Assembly (NCBI RefSeq): GCF_000021945.1
Contig: NC_011831.1
Span: 3,733,353 to 3,797,352, forward strand
Direction: 5' to 3'
Length of the DNA stretch: 64,000 bases
Origin: Chloroflexus aggregans DSM 9485
GTDB lineage: Bacteria; Chloroflexota; Chloroflexia; Chloroflexales; Chloroflexaceae
Under the pieces are notes generated by a model, which worked only from the letters and a program-made list of their open reading frames with translations, made no database searches and was not told where the DNA came from. Shown here in pieces: positions 28,560 to 42,018 of this stretch; positions within the stretch are counted from its first letter, which is position 1; each line of letters begins with the position of its first letter. The position numbers were made by a program, and so were the translations under genes.

Positions 28560-31424
28560 CTAGCGTGCAGTCATCGGGATGAACGTGGTGTAGATGTTCA
28601 GTCGGCGCGCTTGCGGCAAACCGGTTGAGAATACCACCGAAGTGTTCCCAGCCGAGTCGCGGAACTGAACATAATACGTGCCGGCCAGTGGTGCTGTGAC
28701 ATATCGGCTGAACGGTTGCCAGATGTTACTCTGTTCGGCATTCGTCCAAACTCGCATCTCTGTCACGGTGCCGGCTGCACTTTGAGCGGCGAGTTCAAGC
28801 ACCATCTCTGTGCTGGTATTCCGATATGGGGCAATCGCACCAGTAATAGTGGTGCCATTGAGCAAAGGCGGACTGGCGAGCGGTTCGATTGGGTCAACCT
28901 CTGCGGCTTGGCTCGCAGAATCGGTCGCCTCTTCGGCAAGGCTGGCTGGCAGCGGCGCCGGCGTACCGGTGTAGATACGCATACTGCTTGGCCGATAGTT
29001 TCTCCAGTAGCTCAGTGCGTTGGCCAGCGTCGTGTATGCACCATTGCGTAATCCCGGATCGTGGACGGTGTAATTGGCCGGATTCGAGCCGCTACCGCCC
29101 AGAACCACGATGAAGTGCATATTACCGTCGCTTTTTTGCAATTCGAGAATCACCGGACCTTTTCTTAGTTCCGCCTCCAGATTGGGATAGCTGAATGCTG
29201 GCCATTTCACCCAGCGCAGCTTATTGTTGGTGCAAGTACGCACCTGCGGGCTTGACCAGTACAACGGACATGCATGCGCTCCCAAACAAGAGTTCATCGT
29301 TCCTGGGTTGTGGTCAACTCCATAGTAACGCGCGACCATAGTGAGCGATGTCAAGGCGCACCCGATTCGGCCGATAGTGTAATTACAGTCCGTAGCATAC
29401 GAGGGCCGGTTCATCATTTGCCCACTCCATCGCGGATCGTACTGCGAGTAATAGGGTACTCGCCAGACGTTCGGCGCTGGAGTTGGTGGTGGTGGTGGCG
29501 TTGGTATCGGAGCGACTACAGCGTAATATAACGTCCGCCGGCTGCTGCTGGCACTGTCAGCCGCGCCATCGTTGGTTTGTGCGTACCACGAATACACCCC
29601 TATTTTTGGCAATTGCACTGTCCAGCTTGGGCTATCAATCCAGCCGGAGTTAGCTTGCCATGAGTTGTCAGATGAGGTGATGATGAAGCGGAATTTACGG
29701 CTTGAGTTCGGCCAATTGTCCGGATCGCCACCGTCGGACGCTTGCAAGGTAACGGTAGCCGTATTGACGGTCGCGTTGTGATCTGGACTAATCAGATTAG
29801 GCGGGTTGGGTGGGCGGTTGGGGGTGTAGGTAAATGTGCGCAGGGGAGCAGGATCACTCATCGCAGCTCCGTCCCCGGCGTAGACTGTCCAAGTATAGCT
29901 GCCCTCCCCCGGTAGTTGGACGGTCCAACTGGTGCTTGTGATCCAGCCGGAGTCAGTTCGCCACGAGTTATCCGATTTAGCGATGTGGAAGCTGTAATTA
30001 CGCTGGGGAGCAGGCCAGTTGTCGGGGTCGCCGGCATCGGCCACTTGGAGGGTGACACTGGCCGTTCTGATGGTTGCACCGTTTTCTGGGCTAATGAGGT
30101 GTGGCGGGTTGGGTGGGCGGTTGGGGATGTAGGTAAATGTGCGCAGGGGAGCAGGATCACTCATCGCAGCTCCGTCCCCGGCGTGGACCGTCCAAGTATA
30201 GCTCCCCTCGCCCGGCAGTTCGACGGTCCAACTGGTGCTTGTGATCCAGCCTGATTCGACACGCCAGGAGTTGTCAGATTTAGTAATGATGAAGAAGTAA
30301 TCACGCCAAGAACGCGGTCCGTTATCGGGGTCGCCGGCATCTTCCATGTGTAAAGTAACGGTATTCGTTCTGATGATTGCGCCATCTTCCGGGCTAACGA
30401 GACGGGGCGGGTTGGGTTTAATATTACCACTTCCAGTGGCGCCTTCATTGGTGATCAGTCCGGGTCCTTCAATCACATTGAGGTTACTGTCATTGCGAAC
30501 ACATTGACGATTCCCGTCGCGAATTCGGGTCATACAACCGTTGAAATCGCCGGGAAGCGCACTGACAGTCCAGCCACCGATGTCAATGCCGTCAATTGGT
30601 ATCCGCGTCCCGCCACGCGAGATCCAAAAATGAACGTGCGCACCGGTCACATAACTACCGAGACATCTAGTACCGGTGCCAATCATACCGATATAGGTGT
30701 ACCGATCGACCGGAGTCCCGTTAGCGACAGCAATCCCCGAAAGGTGGTAATAATTGGTGCTAAAACCGCCGGGGTGGTCGATCCGCACGAGATCCGAACT
30801 TTGACCGCATGGAGTATAGGCTACTCCCTCTCGTGCGGCTCGTACACGACCACCAATGACAGCAAAATCGAGAGCTGCCCTTGAAATACCGTGTGGGCCA
30901 CTGGTTAACCACCACGTCTCGCCAACCGCCCATGGCAGGTTGAGGTCCATTGACCCATCACCGCTCAATTGCGCCGTCGTTGGCATTGTTGACCACTGTT
31001 CCGGCGTCAAGAGGTTTCTGGGGATTTGCGTGAGCGCTTGCTCAAAGGCAGCAGAGTGTTCGAGCGCTACTTGCCAGGTGCCGTTGCTTTGCTCGGCAAA
31101 GAAGAGCAGGATACGTGGAGCCGTCTCTTCATCTGGTGCGTTATCCGAGGCGGGTTGGGGAATAATTGCAACGGAACCGAAGACCCATGCTTTGACTTGT
31201 GAAATTGGTGAGACAATGATCTGCGCTGTTGCCGCATTCGGGTGTTGCGCACTGACTGCCGCGCTCACTGCCTGTTCTAACGCAGGATTAAGTGCAGGTG
31301 AAGCGCTGGCGGTCTCACTGCGGAGCGTGAAGAAGAACTGGACGAAGAGGATACTCGTCACTGCCAACACGACCGTTCCGAACAGTAACCGGTTCAGAAA
31401 AGGTTCTGGCTTGCTCGATTGCAT
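28560..31424 (-). CDS. Exported protein with M23 peptidase, three beta-repeats and C39-like peptidase
   Basis: 954 residues. An N-terminal membrane anchor or signal (FLNRLLFGTVVLAVTSILF) leads into an M23/LytM-like domain (~residues 150-290). Its zinc-type residues appear as SGPHG, ALDF and HVHFW. Three tandem ~95-residue Ig/Fn3-like repeats follow, each with PPNPP.LISP.. and SWTV.LPGEGSYTW. A Pro-rich linker precedes a C39_2-like papain fold (VPYYSQYDPRWSG, IGCALTSLTMVARYYG with the candidate Cys, HFIVVLGG, VHDPGL). A C-terminal beta-domain ends the protein. It probably cleaves peptidoglycan or proteins outside the cell. Confidence 0.8.
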   Translation of the reverse strand: MQSSKPEPFLNRLLFGTVVLAVTSILFVQFFFTLRSETASASPALNPALEQAVSAAVSAQHPNAATAQIIVSPISQVKAWVFGSVAIIPQPASDNAPDEETAPRILLFFAEQSNGTWQVALEHSAAFEQALTQIPRNLLTPEQWSTMPTTAQLSGDGSMDLNLPWAVGETWWLTSGPHGISRAALDFAVIGGRVRAAREGVAYTPCGQSSDLVRIDHPGGFSTNYYHLSGIAVANGTPVDRYTYIGMIGTGTRCLGSYVTGAHVHFWISRGGTRIPIDGIDIGGWTVSALPGDFNGCMTRIRDGNRQCVRNDSNLNVIEGPGLITNEGATGSGNIKPNPPRLVSPEDGAIIRTNTVTLHMEDAGDPDNGPRSWRDYFFIITKSDNSWRVESGWITSTSWTVELPGEGSYTWTVHAGDGAAMSDPAPLRTFTYIPNRPPNPPHLISPENGATIRTASVTLQVADAGDPDNWPAPQRNYSFHIAKSDNSWRTDSGWITSTSWTVQLPGEGSYTWTVYAGDGAAMSDPAPLRTFTYTPNRPPNPPNLISPDHNATVNTATVTLQASDGGDPDNWPNSSRKFRFIITSSDNSWQANSGWIDSPSWTVQLPKIGVYSWYAQTNDGAADSASSSRRTLYYAVVAPIPTPPPPPTPAPNVWRVPYYSQYDPRWSGQMMNRPSYATDCNYTIGRIGCALTSLTMVARYYGVDHNPGTMNSCLGAHACPLYWSSPQVRTCTNNKLRWVKWPAFSYPNLEAELRKGPVILELQKSDGNMHFIVVLGGSGSNPANYTVHDPGLRNGAYTTLANALSYWRNYRPSSMRIYTGTPAPLPASLAEEATDSASQAAEVDPIEPLASPPLLNGTTITGAIAPYRNTSTEMVLELAAQSAAGTVTEMRVWTNAEQSNIWQPFSRYVTAPLAGTYYVQFRDSAGNTSVVFSTGLPQARRLNIYTTFIPMTAR

Positions 31425-31746
31425 GGCGTCCCCCCTGTGGCTGGTTGATTAAACGAACCTTTCTTGCTGGTGGGTTGCGGCAGATCAGCTAAGCATGGGG
31501 GAAGGATGCAGAGTGGGAAGAGTGCCTATCGATTGCCTGCAATTGAATCGTAGCTAGCGCAGAGTAGCCAAGCAATATTCTAAAATTAGGATATTTGTGT
31601 AGTATCGCTAGGGCTAATGTTTAGTGGGTTGCCGGTTATCTTGCGAACGGTATGGTGCAAGCTAGAAGTGCGATCTTTCTCACAGTACGATCTCGGTATA
31701 TCGAACATTGCACCTTTACCATGACGTTCTCCTTTGCCCACGTACA
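31425..31746. other. Divergent intergenic region
   Basis: AT-richer spacer between the two-peptidase gene (minus, with a GGGGGGA ribosome binding site next to its ATG) and nurA (plus). I see no gene, and no repeat in it. Confidence 0.4.
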
Positions 31747-31775
31747 TTGACAGACCGTACCGAATCATCTATCCT
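31747..31775 (+). promoter_or_regulatory. Promoter of the nurA / HAS-barrel pair
   Basis: Consensus TTGACA (31747-31752), a 17-bp spacer and TATCCT (31770-31775), 33 bp before the nurA ATG. Confidence 0.75.
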
Positions 31776-31808
31776 AAACAATACGAACAGGTGAGCGAAG
31801 GAGTCGGC

Positions 31809-33020
31809 ATGAGTCTTAATCTCGCTGCACTCGGTGAACAGGTTCGTGTGATGGGCCAGACTGCTGCCCGTGAAGCGCCACAGCGTGATCGGCGTCTTGA
31901 TGACGTGCGCCAACGCTATCTGGCCGAGGTCGGTCAGGAAGATACATGGCATACCGCGGTTGAGTTAAGTTCACCGTCGTTCAATTGGCTATTGGCCGAT
32001 CCGGTTGAGGCGCTCGATACGGTGGGCGATTTGCCACCTATACCCAACGACTATGCAATCGTGGCGACCGATGGCTCGCATCTCGATGTCGACCGCCACG
32101 GTGAGGTTGATTGTTACTTAATCAACATTGGACAGGTCTATATCCGGTATGGGACCAACCCGGAAGCTCGGCTCGAATCGCTACCGCGCCTCTTCTTTAC
32201 CGAAGATGAGCTGTTTTTGACCGATGACACGCGCCGCATTCCCATCGAAGGTGCGGTACTGAGTATGCGGCGTGATGTTGAGGAAGGTTTGGCGCTGGCA
32301 CGATTAGCCACCCACTATCTGACCGATCTGAACCTCCCACGCTTAGCACTACAAGATGGCACCTTGATCCGATGGGCCTTGGCGAATGCCGACGCGAAGG
32401 TCCGCGATCACTTTTTGCGGCAGTATTTGTCGTATCTCAACGAGATGCAGGAGCGCGCCATCCCGGTCGCTTCGTACATCAGTCGCAGTCGCTCGCCAGA
32501 GGTGATGGGGTTGGTCCGGTTGATGCTGTGCCCTGATGTGAATGTCAAAGCGCAGCGCGGGGCAAATTGCGCCCAGTGCAGTGATGCCAGGCAGGGATTC
32601 ACCCCTTCGTGTATGGTATGCCAAGACTTGATCGACGCCGATCTGTTTGCGCCGCGTTTGCGTGAAGGTCAGCGCAGTCCTATTTTTCGCTCAATGAGCC
32701 GGATTAGTGTTGAGCGGTACGAACAGCACGCGATTCACTTCTTCTTTATGCGGATCGGTCGTGAATTGGTCCGGGTTGAGTTTCCGCGTTGGGTGATGGA
32801 TACGCCGCAGTTTATCGATCAGATCCATGCGTTGGTGTACGATCAAGCCACGCGCGGCCTGGGCTATCCGATTGCCTTGCAGCGTGCTCACGAACAAGCG
32901 GTGATTCGCAGTGCCGAGCGGCGGGTGTTTGAGCAGATGGTCGCCGGTGCGCTCCAGCGCGCCCAAGCGCCGGCTGGCGTTTCGGCCAAGCGTGAGAGTA
33001 AGCAGTTTGTGCAGGGATGA
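31809..33020 (+). CDS. nurA: NurA-domain DNA nuclease
   Basis: 403 residues. IVATDGSHLDVDRHG is the NurA metal-binding start (DGS), with further acidic residues in LQDGTLIRWAL and a C-terminal FPRWVMD segment. In archaea NurA is a 5'-3' nuclease acting with the HerA translocase in DNA end resection. A Cys quartet (CAQC, then CMVC) in the middle may bind zinc. The ATG at 31809 follows GAAGGAG. The next gene overlaps its stop by 4 bp, and no HerA ATPase is encoded within the window. Confidence 0.82.
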   Translation: MSLNLAALGEQVRVMGQTAAREAPQRDRRLDDVRQRYLAEVGQEDTWHTAVELSSPSFNWLLADPVEALDTVGDLPPIPNDYAIVATDGSHLDVDRHGEVDCYLINIGQVYIRYGTNPEARLESLPRLFFTEDELFLTDDTRRIPIEGAVLSMRRDVEEGLALARLATHYLTDLNLPRLALQDGTLIRWALANADAKVRDHFLRQYLSYLNEMQERAIPVASYISRSRSPEVMGLVRLMLCPDVNVKAQRGANCAQCSDARQGFTPSCMVCQDLIDADLFAPRLREGQRSPIFRSMSRISVERYEQHAIHFFFMRIGRELVRVEFPRWVMDTPQFIDQIHALVYDQATRGLGYPIALQRAHEQAVIRSAERRVFEQMVAGALQRAQAPAGVSAKRESKQFVQG

Positions 33021-33640
33021 TACTCATGACGATGCCGCAAAATGGCCGGATCGGTGAAATTATCGAGTCTTCGACGACTCAGTTTGTCGCTGCGACATAC
33101 GAATTGTTGGCTGCGCCGCCGTTTGGCGCGTTGGTGCGGGCCACGACTCGCGATCAGGCATTGGTGGTCTATGGGCTGGTGTTTGATATTCACACCGGCA
33201 GCCGCGAACCGGGTGGTCGGGCGATTGTGCGTGGCCGCACGTACAGTGGGCATTATCTCTATGATGATGAAATCTACCGCGCCCATCCCGATCTCGGCGA
33301 GGTGCTGCAAACCGAGTTCGCTGCACTAACGGTCGGTTACACCCTCGATGGGCGTTTGTTTCAACGCCTGCCGCCCCAGCCGCCACCGGTGCATTATTCG
33401 GTCTACCCCTGTGAGCCACCCGAATTGGCGCAGTTCGGCGAGCAACTCGATTTTTTGCGCACCATTTTGCTTGCTCCCGGTGTGCCGGGTGATGAGGTAT
33501 TGACGGCTGCGGTGCGGTCCATTGCTGCTGTACGTCGTGATGGACCTGCCTATCTGGTGCGGGTTGGCCGTGAATTGGCTCGTCTGCTCAAAGAAGATTA
33601 TGACCGGTTGACGGCGTTATTGCACCAGATCAAACCGTGA
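33017..33640 (+). CDS. HAS-barrel-like protein coupled to nurA
   Basis: 207 residues (or 204 from a second ATG at 33026). The start GRIGEIIESSTTQFVAATYE resembles the N-terminal HAS-barrel that HerA ATPases share with ATP synthase subunits. No Walker A or B motif follows, so it is not itself HerA. The rest is helical. Its ATG overlaps the nurA stop as ATGA, so the two are made together. It may be a HerA-like clamp or adaptor; the assignment is tentative. Confidence 0.6.
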   Translation: MILMTMPQNGRIGEIIESSTTQFVAATYELLAAPPFGALVRATTRDQALVVYGLVFDIHTGSREPGGRAIVRGRTYSGHYLYDDEIYRAHPDLGEVLQTEFAALTVGYTLDGRLFQRLPPQPPPVHYSVYPCEPPELAQFGEQLDFLRTILLAPGVPGDEVLTAAVRSIAAVRRDGPAYLVRVGRELARLLKEDYDRLTALLHQIKP

Positions 33641-33863
33641 AACCCAGGATCGGTTCCGTAGCATCACCAGGCTTGCCATATGCAGCGCGGTAGTAGCCGG
33701 AGCGCTGTTGCTGGTGCCCAACCGGCTCAATGGAGTTCGTCCGTTCCCCAGCCTGGCTCTGTGCCGTATCAATGTTGCGAACTAGCGTGCTGGGAGGCTT
33801 CAGTCGTGCGCGATGCAGTACGGCAATGATCATACCCGGTTCTGTGGACTGCATCCTATGGAT
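33641..33863. other. Spacer between the nurA operon and the 134-bp array
   Basis: GC-rich; no gene or clear promoter seen. It is not a recognisable extra copy of the 134-bp unit. Confidence 0.4.
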
Positions 33864-35200
33864 TCCGGCAGACCCGGTGCCGGACCCTTGTAGCCCGTGG
33901 CAGACCCGGTGCCGGACACCTGTTGCGTATCGCCGGCACTGACCGCGAGGAGTGGGTGTGTGAACGCTACCGGGTCGGGTGCGATCATCTCACCGCTTGG
34001 GTAATCGCCCGTTCCTGTGACGTGTGGCGTCCGGCAGACCCGGTGCCGGACACCTGTTGCGTATCGCCGGCGCCGACCGCGAGGAGTGGGTGTGTGAACG
34101 CTACCGGATCGGGTGCGATCATCTCACCGCTTGGGTAATCGCCCGTTCCTGTGACGTGTGGCGTCCGGCAGACCCGGTGCCGGACACCTGTTGCGTATCG
34201 CCGGCGCCGACCGCGAGGAGCGGGTGTGTGAACGCTACGGGATCGGGTGCGATCATCTCACCGCTTGGGTAATCGCCCGTTCCTGTGACGTGTGGCGTCC
34301 GGCAGACCCGGTGCCGGACACCTGTTGCGTATCGCCGGCGCCGACCGCGAGGAGCGGGTGTGTGAACGCTACCGGGTCGGGTGCGATCATCTCACCGCTT
34401 GGGTAATCGCCCGTTCCTGTGACGTGTGGCGTCCGGCAGACCCGGTGCCGGACACCTGTTGCGTATCGCCGGCGCCGACCGCGAGGAGCGGGTGTGTGAA
34501 CGCTACTGGATCGGGTGCGATCATCTCACCGCTTGGGTAATCGCCCGTTCCTGTGACGTGTGGCGTCCGGCAGACCCGGTGCCGGACACCTGTTGCGTAT
34601 CGCCGGCGCCGACCGCGAGGAGCGGGTGTGTGAACGCTACCGGGTCGGGTGCGATCATCTCACCGCTTGGGTAATCGCCCGTTCCTGTGACGTGTGGCGT
34701 CCGGCAGACCCGGTGCCGGACACCTGTTGCGTATCGCCGGCACTGACCGCGAGGAGCGGGTGTGTGAACGCTACTGGGTCGGGTGCGATCGTCTCACCGC
34801 TTGGGTAATCGCCCGTTCCTGTGACGTGTGGCGTCCGGCAGACCCGGTGCCGGACACCTGTTGCGTATCGCCGGCGCCGACCGAGAGGAGTGGGTGTGTG
34901 AACGCTACTGGGTCGGGTGCGATCGTCTCACCGCTTGGGTAATCGCCCGTTCCTGTGACGTGTGGCGTCCGGCAGACCCGGTGCCGGACACCTGTTGCGT
35001 ATCGCCGGCGCCGACCGAGAGGAGTGGGTGTGTGAACGCTACCGGGTCGGGTGCGATCATCTCACCGCTTGGGTAATCGCCCGTTCCTGTGACGTGTGGC
35101 GTCCGGCAGACCCGGTGCCGGACACCTGTTGCGTATCGCCGGCGCCGACCGCGAGGAGCGGGTGTGTGAACGCTACTGGATCGGGTGCGATCATCTCACC
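33864..35200. repeat. Tandem array of ~10 units of 134 bp
   Basis: Eight complete units of exactly 134 bp plus partial units at both ends. Unit boundaries (GACGTGTGGCGTCC) fall at 34019, 34153, 34287, 34421, 34555, 34689, 34823, 34957 and 35091; the first partial unit starts near 33899, and the last breaks off at ~35200. Each unit holds the hairpin TCCGGCA / TGCCGGA with a 7-nt loop; one extra hairpin copy stands at 33864-33884. 134 is not a multiple of 3, so no protein repeat is encoded. The 82-codon frames seen in each unit are a by-product. Function unknown. Confidence 0.95.
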
Positions 35201-35259
35201 TCTTGCCCTAACATCTGCTATCATACGCATCGAGAATCTGCTCTGTCACGGAGAAGGTC

Positions 35260-36288
35260 ATGCTCTTGCTTGATGCCGCTTTTCAAGTCGATGCCAACCC
35301 GCTGCCCACCGCTGCTACCGTTGCCCAAGCTGCCGAGGCGATTGGCTTTGCCGCGCTTTGGGCACCGGAGACGGCCCACAACCCCTTTCTCCCCCTCACA
35401 ATTGCTGCCGAACATACGCGGCGGCTCACTATCGGTACGGCGGTGGCAATCGCTTTTCCACGTAGCCCAATGGTGACGGCTCAGATCGCGTGGGATCTGG
35501 CCGGTTTTAGCGGCGGGCGGTTTGTGTTAGGGTTAGGCACACAGGTGAAGGCCCATATCGAACGACGTTTTAGCAGCGTCTGGGATTCGCCGGTGGGCCG
35601 GTTGCGCGACTACATCGGTGCGCTCCGTGCCATCTGGCAGTGTTGGCAGACTGGTAGCAAGCTCGATTATCGCGGACAATACTATCAACATACGTTGATG
35701 ACACCTTTTTTTAGTCCCGGTCCAATCGATCATCCGCAGATCCCAATTTATATCGCCGGTGTGAATACCGGTCTTGCTCATTTGGCCGGTGAGATATGCG
35801 ATGGCTTCCACGCCCATCCACTCTCAAGTGCCCGTTATTTGCGCGAAGTTTTGCGCCCGCAGATTACCGCCGGAGCTGTGGCTGCCGGTCGCGATCCGGC
35901 GGCGTGTATCATCGCCGGAAGTGCTTTAGTGATTACCGGACATAATGCCACCGAACGCGCCCGTATGCGCGCCTTCGTGCGTCAGCAAATTGCCTTTTAC
36001 GCCTCAACACCGACCTACCGCGCCGTGCTTGAATGCCATGGCTGGGGTGAGGTTGGCGAAGAGTTGTCGCGCTTGGCGGCGCAGCAGCGGTGGGCCGAGA
36101 TGACTGCCCTGATCGACGAAACAATGATGGCGACCTTTGCTGTGGAAGCCGATCCGGCCGATCTGCCGGCAGCGTTGCGGGAACGGTACGAAGGTCTGCT
36201 TGACCGGGTTGCGCTCTATCTGCCGTTTGTGCCCGGCGAACGTGATGCGTTTTGGCGTCATCTTACTGTTTCACTGAATGGTGCGTAG
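35260..36288 (+). CDS. Luciferase-like (LLM class) flavin/F420-dependent oxidoreductase
   Basis: 342-residue TIM-barrel enzyme of the bacterial luciferase superfamily. Typical stretches are EAIGFAALWAPETAHNPFLPL, TIGTAVAIAFPRSPM and FVLGLGTQVKAHIERRFSS, close to F420-dependent oxidoreductases of actinobacteria. The cofactor (FMN or F420) and substrate are not evident. The ATG at 35260 has GGAGAAGG. It begins right after the 134-bp array and runs into the aminotransferase gene with almost no gap. Confidence 0.82.
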   Translation: MLLLDAAFQVDANPLPTAATVAQAAEAIGFAALWAPETAHNPFLPLTIAAEHTRRLTIGTAVAIAFPRSPMVTAQIAWDLAGFSGGRFVLGLGTQVKAHIERRFSSVWDSPVGRLRDYIGALRAIWQCWQTGSKLDYRGQYYQHTLMTPFFSPGPIDHPQIPIYIAGVNTGLAHLAGEICDGFHAHPLSSARYLREVLRPQITAGAVAAGRDPAACIIAGSALVITGHNATERARMRAFVRQQIAFYASTPTYRAVLECHGWGEVGEELSRLAAQQRWAEMTALIDETMMATFAVEADPADLPAALRERYEGLLDRVALYLPFVPGERDAFWRHLTVSLNGA

Positions 36289-38575: not shown

Positions 38576-40486
38576 ATGCCACCAAAACCGTCGCACTCTG
38601 CCAAGTTACCCCCTAGTCGCGGTCGTGCTCCGGCACCGTGGACGATCTGGGAACTTATGGCGATTGCGGTGAGCGTCTTGATGATTGTGGTACCTCTCTC
38701 GCTAGAGGTGCTGAATTGGTTGCGCCCGCCGGTTGTGCCGGCGCAGGGGCTGATGGCAGTGACTGAAACGGCTGTTAGCCTTGAACAGCGCCCACCAACG
38801 TTTACGCCGGTAAATTCACCCACGCCGGGAACGCCAACCGCAGTGACGCCGACGGTTGAGACGCCAACCGCAGTGACGCCGACGGTTGAGACGCCGACCG
38901 CAGCGACGCCGACGGTTGAGACACCGACCGCAGCGACGCCGACGGTTGAGACGCCGACCGCAGCGACGCCGACGGTTGAGACACCGACCGCAGTGACACC
39001 GACGGTTGAGACGCCGACATCACTGCCAACCTTGACTCCTTCACCTACTCCCGGCACCACCCGTGTGACTAAGTTTGCTTCATTAAGTACAGCGGCGCCC
39101 GGTCAACCGTTTAGCTATAGTCTTGCTGTGACAACCCAAAGTGATAGTACGCTTATCCTGACGCTGCGTGATGTGCTAGCACCTGAGCTTGAAGTACTCG
39201 ACGTATCGGCGGTAGGAGGATCGTGCTTTTTGGGTCAGACGGTGCTCTGTACGCTAAACGTTAGTAGTCTTAATCCGGCATCAGTAACAATACAGGTACG
39301 GGTACTTTCATCGGTCAGTGAGGGAACGGTCATTCCTAATCAAGCGAGACTTGAACAGGGTAGTCTGCAGATCGGTGTTTCAAATGTTGTCAATGTCACG
39401 GTTGCCGGATCAGCACAGCCCACTCCAGAACCAACGACTGCAACGGCAACCCCAACCCCCACGGCAACCCCAACGGTGCCTACTACCCCAACATTGGTGA
39501 CGGCTATCCCGCCAACCGTAGTTGTAACCAACACTCCGCTACCGGCTACCCCACGGCCAACATCTCCGCCACGACCTCCGGCGCCTCCTGAGCCTACTCC
39601 AACAGCATCACCTGTACCACCGCCGCCCACTGCTTCTCCACCGGTGTTACCGACAGAGCCGCCCACATCGGCGCCGGTCGTCACGGTTGCGCCGCGTCCA
39701 ACAGCAACGCCGCGTCCTCGTCCGCCGGCGCCGCCAACTAATACGCCGACACCGGAGGTGTCGCCAACTCCAACCGAGCCACCTGCACCGGCTGTGTTCG
39801 GTGAGTCTGATCTGCTCTTGCGACTATCGAGTGATTGGGGAAGTGTTTATGCCGGTCAGGACGTGGTCTTTACGGTAATCTTGGGCAACACGCATCCATC
39901 ACAAACGATCAGTGCCGTCAGTGTTCGTAGTGTTATGCCGGCGAACTTGCAGGTGTTGAATGCCAATGCAAGTCGCGGGGCCGATCCGGTGATCAACGGG
40001 CGGATAGTAACCTATGTTGCACCTGATCTCGCCCCCGGTGAGCGGGTAGAGTTGACCATTGCAACCCGTGTTCAGCCTAACGTGGCAGTGGGTACGCTCC
40101 TTGTGGTTCAAGCGCAGGCGAATTATAGCGGGTTGAGTCGGCCGGTCTTTTCCAATATCAGTACCGTGTTGGTGGTCGGATCACAGCAGGTGGCGACGGC
40201 TATTCCGACGTTGTCACCGACGATCGGTCGAACGCCGGTAGTGACGAGTAGTCCGGCGGTGACGGCAACAGTGACGGTAACTGCGTCGGTGACGGTGACG
40301 CCGATGACGGGTGGCAAGGTGACCGCTACCGCCACACCCGTACCACCGGCGGCAGGTGGTCAAAGCGGTAGTCAAGCACCGCTACCGAATACGAGTGCCG
40401 GGATACCCTTCCTTGGTGTGTTATTGCTGGGTGCTACCTTGCTAACCCGCACAATACGACTCCATCGCGCTCGTGAACGGATTTGA
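38576..40486 (+). CDS. Sortase-anchored Thr/Pro-rich surface protein with LPNTS tail
   Basis: 636 residues. An N-terminal membrane segment (~30-50) is followed by a Thr/Pro-rich region with six TPTVETPTA-type decapeptide repeats and two DUF11-like beta-domains (KFASLSTAAPGQPFSYSL; DLLLRLSSDWGSVYAGQDV) joined by long Pro-rich linkers. The C-terminus has the sorting pattern LPNTSAG, a hydrophobic helix and the basic tail RLHRARERI. The ATG at 38576 follows AAGGAGG. It is the likely substrate of the upstream sortase; the stalk would hold it away from the wall. Confidence 0.85.
   Translation: MPPKPSHSAKLPPSRGRAPAPWTIWELMAIAVSVLMIVVPLSLEVLNWLRPPVVPAQGLMAVTETAVSLEQRPPTFTPVNSPTPGTPTAVTPTVETPTAVTPTVETPTAATPTVETPTAATPTVETPTAATPTVETPTAVTPTVETPTSLPTLTPSPTPGTTRVTKFASLSTAAPGQPFSYSLAVTTQSDSTLILTLRDVLAPELEVLDVSAVGGSCFLGQTVLCTLNVSSLNPASVTIQVRVLSSVSEGTVIPNQARLEQGSLQIGVSNVVNVTVAGSAQPTPEPTTATATPTPTATPTVPTTPTLVTAIPPTVVVTNTPLPATPRPTSPPRPPAPPEPTPTASPVPPPPTASPPVLPTEPPTSAPVVTVAPRPTATPRPRPPAPPTNTPTPEVSPTPTEPPAPAVFGESDLLLRLSSDWGSVYAGQDVVFTVILGNTHPSQTISAVSVRSVMPANLQVLNANASRGADPVINGRIVTYVAPDLAPGERVELTIATRVQPNVAVGTLLVVQAQANYSGLSRPVFSNISTVLVVGSQQVATAIPTLSPTIGRTPVVTSSPAVTATVTVTASVTVTPMTGGKVTATATPVPPAAGGQSGSQAPLPNTSAGIPFLGVLLLGATLLTRTIRLHRARERI
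38831..39016. repeat. 30-bp tandem coding repeats in the surface protein
   Basis: Six in-frame 30-bp units (ACGCCGACCGCAGYGACGCC core) from 38831, encoding TPTAVTPTVE-type decapeptides. Differences are mostly G/A and C/T. Confidence 0.9.
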
Positions 40487-41943: not shown

Positions 41944-42018
41944 GGGCCGCTAGCTCAACGGCAGAGCAATCGGCTCATAACCGACAGGTTCTCGGTTCGA
42001 ATCCGAGGCGGCCCACCA
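41944..42018 (+). tRNA. tRNA-Met (CAU anticodon), with encoded CCA
   Basis: A complete cloverleaf: acceptor GGGCCGC/GCGGCCC, D arm GCTC/GAGC, anticodon loop CTCATAA, T arm CTCGG/CCGAG with TTCGAAT, and encoded CCA at 42016-42018. The first acceptor pair is G-C, so it is not the initiator. CAU could also be the lysidine-modified tRNA-Ile2; elongator Met is the simpler reading. Confidence 0.88.

Follow-up and report, generated by a model that had tools for sequence, protein, structure and literature searches.

Bacterial minisatellites of the VNTR and MIRU type consist of intergenic units, repeated in tandem and from tens of bases to more than a hundred long; they serve in strain typing, and MIRUs are found at many loci. 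REPs, which like BIMEs are short, GC-rich palindromes in non-coding DNA, are dispersed over the genome. Long-unit prokaryotic satellites have also been described, in which a non-coding unit of over 30 nt is repeated in tandem, has a unique sequence and has no family elsewhere (Subirana and Messeguer, 2019, PMC6749651). Chloroflexus aurantiacus stands first in the bacterial table of that study at 14.4 satellites per Mb (76 in all, of which 42.1% are long-unit), and dispersed families of long-unit non-coding satellites are described there as rare in bacteria.

We analyzed a window of 64,000 nucleotides from Chloroflexus aggregans DSM 9485 that contains a non-coding tandem array with a 134-bp unit. 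This array has the same traits as the long-unit satellites; it comes from a different genome (C. aggregans as opposed to C. aurantiacus) and its anatomy has no feature that distinguishes it from them. It thus adds one more case to a known type, and the genus is one for which an abundance of satellites is on record. With a probability of roughly 0.85, we regard it as a species-private intergenic minisatellite (a long-unit bacterial satellite) that arose by tandem duplication, was homogenized by exchange and probably has no dedicated function. In the window, TRF placed the array at positions 33899-35205, with a period of 134, 9.8 copies, 97% matches, no indels and a score of 2460; the copy number is that given by the assembled contig NC_011831.1, a single one of 4,684,931 bases. 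The features of the locus, in window coordinates, are these:

31734-33020, + strand: nurA (PF09376, E 5e-38)
33017-33640, + strand: gene after nurA for a stand-alone HAS-barrel protein (PF09378), the upstream flank of the array
33868-33899, + strand: left stub, a hairpin core followed by sequence unlike the 134-bp unit
33900-35105, + strand: nine full tandem units, each exactly 134 bp (TRF and cutting at GCAGACC)
35106 to about 35205, + strand: right partial unit, ending just 5' of the promoter-like monooxygenase leader
35210-35259, + strand: monooxygenase leader (AACATCTGCTATCATA ... GGAGA), outside the array and common to five Chloroflexus species
35260-36288, + strand: luciferase-like monooxygenase gene (PF00296), the downstream flank

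The number of full units depends on the phase in which they are cut. Cutting at GCAGACC gives nine and the hairpin phase, which starts at TCCGGCA, gives the eight nearly identical units with partial ends that the initial annotation had described. That annotation had also placed the array between a nurA operon and an oxidoreductase gene, of which Pfam bears out NurA and assigns the downstream gene to the luciferase-like monooxygenases, and had held that it is neither a protein repeat nor a CRISPR array. Both of these points stand. The copies lie head to tail at high identity, no frame is open throughout 33900-35105, every frame being closed somewhere across the array, and 134 is not a multiple of 3. 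As in a CRISPR array, regular repeats carry an inverted repeat, but here the units abut without spacers. We also considered a decayed coding sequence and rejected it; a 103-aa partial open reading frame has no Pfam match, and its sole clear match outside its own genome is the corresponding intergenic spot of the congener G007, which overlaps the shared leader. Further degenerate units to the left of the array were rejected too, since most of the left-flank score (30, where shuffles reached at most 21) comes from the hairpin core of the stub. The window has two tandem arrays besides this one, at 38831-39018 (30 bp x 6.3) and at 29782-30417 (303 bp x 2.1); both fall within open reading frames and represent protein repeats.

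The TCCGGCA/TGCCGGA hairpin ascribed to each unit was recovered as ten intact cores. In a genome search, the 19-base core (CCGGCAGACCCGGTGCCGG) gave ten exact copies and one with two mismatches, all inside the array, and only six matches elsewhere, each with three mismatches, compared with five for a reversed control pattern. The palindrome, GTCCGGCA-GACCCGG-TGCCGGAC, forms a perfect stem of 8 bp, or 10 of 11 pairs. Because a stem of equal length arose in 4% of unit shuffles (P = 0.04), the hairpin is only marginally unusual. The 134-bp unit as a whole folded no better than its shuffles on either strand (z -0.22 and -0.17), Rfam gave no match within the array, and a search of 33600-35300 for intrinsic terminators (a GC-rich hairpin followed by a T run) found 0 sites, by which we rejected an array of terminators. 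Elsewhere in the window, a tRNA gene (41944-42015) is followed about 85 bases further on by a TPP riboswitch (RF00059, 42101-42216).

The initial annotation had called for a Chloroflexus-wide search for the unit, and at the level of species this showed it to be absent from relatives. In its own genome the unit occurs at one locus only. In the seven congeners (G001 to G007), all matches were short and no better than chance would give (best E 0.01). No exact 21- or 25-base piece of the unit was found in 84,980 species genomes, no exact 21-base piece in IMG/VR and no match in plasmid and phage records, collections that may exclude the window's own record. Neither the unit nor its palindrome is therefore a dispersed repeat; MIRUs occupy many loci and REPs are genome-wide, whereas the unit is found at one locus and its palindrome is GC-rich and non-coding like a REP but confined to the array.

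The HAS-barrel domain, which HerA usually carries at its start, is encoded here by a gene of its own following that for NurA (31734-33640). The HAS-barrel and monooxygenase genes adjoin in five congeners, which are all those where both were recovered, and each lacks the array. The gap between them is 49 (G006), 66 (G001), 173 (G003), 467 (G007) and 502 bp (G004), compared with 1619 bp in C. aggregans. For G002 and G005 the recovered loci stop short of the HAS-barrel gene, with unrelated DNA upstream of the leader. In several other genera both flanking genes also adjoin without the array, some about 12-17 bp and others 70-550 bp apart, and in a few genomes they lie on different contigs. Because the same gene pair adjoins in relatives that lack the array, the array belongs to neither gene. 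By the same conservation of gene order we rejected a functional link to NurA, and the neighborhood looks like chance, as had been suspected.

Each species has its own gap contents, apart from the final 50 bp or so upstream of the monooxygenase gene (AACATCTGCTATCATA and the ribosome-site-like GGAGA; five species), a leader that is probably the gene's own promoter and ribosome site. The left flank of the array resembles that of the nearest sister, G007 (P 0.003), and the unit does not (P 0.54). The resemblance of the flank suggests that the common ancestor with G007 probably had a long gap already; the array either formed inside this gap in the C. aggregans lineage or has since disappeared from the sister. 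We looked for a single-copy ancestor of the unit in the sisters and obtained no support for one; with the leader excluded, the last unit did not align with the gap of G007 better than shuffled sequences do (P 0.37), and the source sequence of the unit was not found.

Eight columns of the unit vary, all within unit positions 39-96. The variants combine as a mosaic: the four-gamete test fails for seven pairs of variable columns, and two units, those at 34302 and 34570, do not differ at all. These data support exchange among copies, and recurrent mutation could also have produced the pattern. The invariant 77 bp of the unit contain the hairpin, and the variable columns are somewhat clustered (P 0.017, post hoc). 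This combination could hint at constraint, which would count against a minisatellite without function, as do the hairpin stem that slightly exceeds the expected length (P 0.04) and the failure to find a source for the unit.

To estimate the density of such arrays, we took sixteen 20-kb samples of the C. aggregans genome (320 kb) and counted TRF arrays with a period of at least 60, at least 2.5 copies, at least 80% matches and all frames closed. The samples contained four other non-coding arrays (152 x 3.0, 137 x 4.7, 111 x 5.5 and 477 x 2.5), which amounts to 12.5 per Mb, a figure with a large counting error. The consensus of the 134-bp unit had no match to those of the other sampled arrays, among the matches listed. 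By the same count, 200 kb of G001 gave three arrays (239 x 13.0, 141 x 3.6 and 145 x 4.6), G003 gave four, of which three are parts of one CRISPR array, and no array turned up in 400 kb from three further genera of the family. E. coli K-12 had one in 220 kb, and these samples are too small to prove an enrichment in Chloroflexus over E. coli. The E. coli array (100 bp x 5.8, L171:25806-26385) is non-coding, lies between yjdN and yjdM and parallels the 134-bp array. Two of the three arrays compared across congeners, the 137-bp array of C. aggregans and the 239-bp array of G001, are private to one species. For the third, the 152-bp array (L112:109-558), three sister species have just 59 bp of the unit, in single copy, and the array is perhaps a visible case of tandem amplification.

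The non-coding 239-bp unit of G001 forms a 13-copy array at L131:12392-15498 and has 71 matches over the chromosome, with dozens of other sites, including some arrays spaced about 374 or 384 bp (3832232-3836432 and 3001753-3003521); none of the other congeners has it. This family is more unusual than the 134-bp array, since dispersed families are called rare in bacteria (PMC6749651). In G003, a long CRISPR array (L143:3101-9613, repeat CTTCAAAAAACCAAAATCCCCGAGAGGGGATTGAAAC) has stretches with a 76-81 bp period and 100% matches, suggesting duplicated spacers.

The initial annotation had offered three readings of the array: a repeated RNA, a protein-binding array or a minisatellite. A role in trans, through repeated RNAs or as a sink for a regulator or nucleoid protein, would make use of one sequence with an inverted repeat many times over. 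Against this, the fold scores near 0 and the lack of an Rfam match within the array led us to reject a structured or known repeated RNA, and a conserved protein-binding array finds no support, given the absence of the unit from every congener and the rest of the genome, which also lacks the single motif copies expected as a regulator's other targets. We therefore consider a trans role highly unlikely. We give the same very small chance to the array, or its copy number, being an assembly artefact. Repeats of about this length are often mis-assembled; here, however, the units hold distinct combinations of variants, both edges join unique sequence within a single closed contig, and other Chloroflexus assemblies have similar arrays.

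An element acting in cis is a somewhat better candidate, though still improbable. Its hairpins would stop or slow transcripts of the nurA operon, or the array would tune the monooxygenase promoter with copy number as the dial. The array lies directly upstream of the conserved leader, has ten intact hairpin cores and shares its strand with both neighboring genes, but there is no terminator-like site, whole-unit folding is not unusual, and relatives retain the gene order with quite different, mostly short gaps. Some effect on transcription, by roadblock hairpins or as a promoter spacer, is possible, with position as the sole positive evidence. That the array has been selected in C. aggregans as such a copy-number-tunable roadblock or spacer, through the invariant hairpin half of the unit, seems to us slightly less probable again. 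By contrast, the exact period, high identity, mosaic variants, single locus and unrelated arrays in the genus together favor a minisatellite, the one reading of the three that the results support.

As a minisatellite, the array would have begun as a 134-bp non-coding stretch between the HAS-barrel and monooxygenase genes, of which replication slippage or misaligned recombination made a tandem duplicate. Further copies may then have been gained, and the units kept uniform, through unequal exchange or conversion within the array. Its site would be one where additional DNA is tolerated, immediately upstream of the short conserved promoter-like leader; the downstream gene would then be affected only incidentally, if at all, and we infer that the array is likely without function. 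Taken alone, the 134-bp array is of little importance, apart from possible use as a strain-typing marker. What it illustrates is that long-unit non-coding satellites grow in Chloroflexus genomes at sites where relatives have short gaps, and this makes the genus a natural system for the gain and loss of bacterial satellites.
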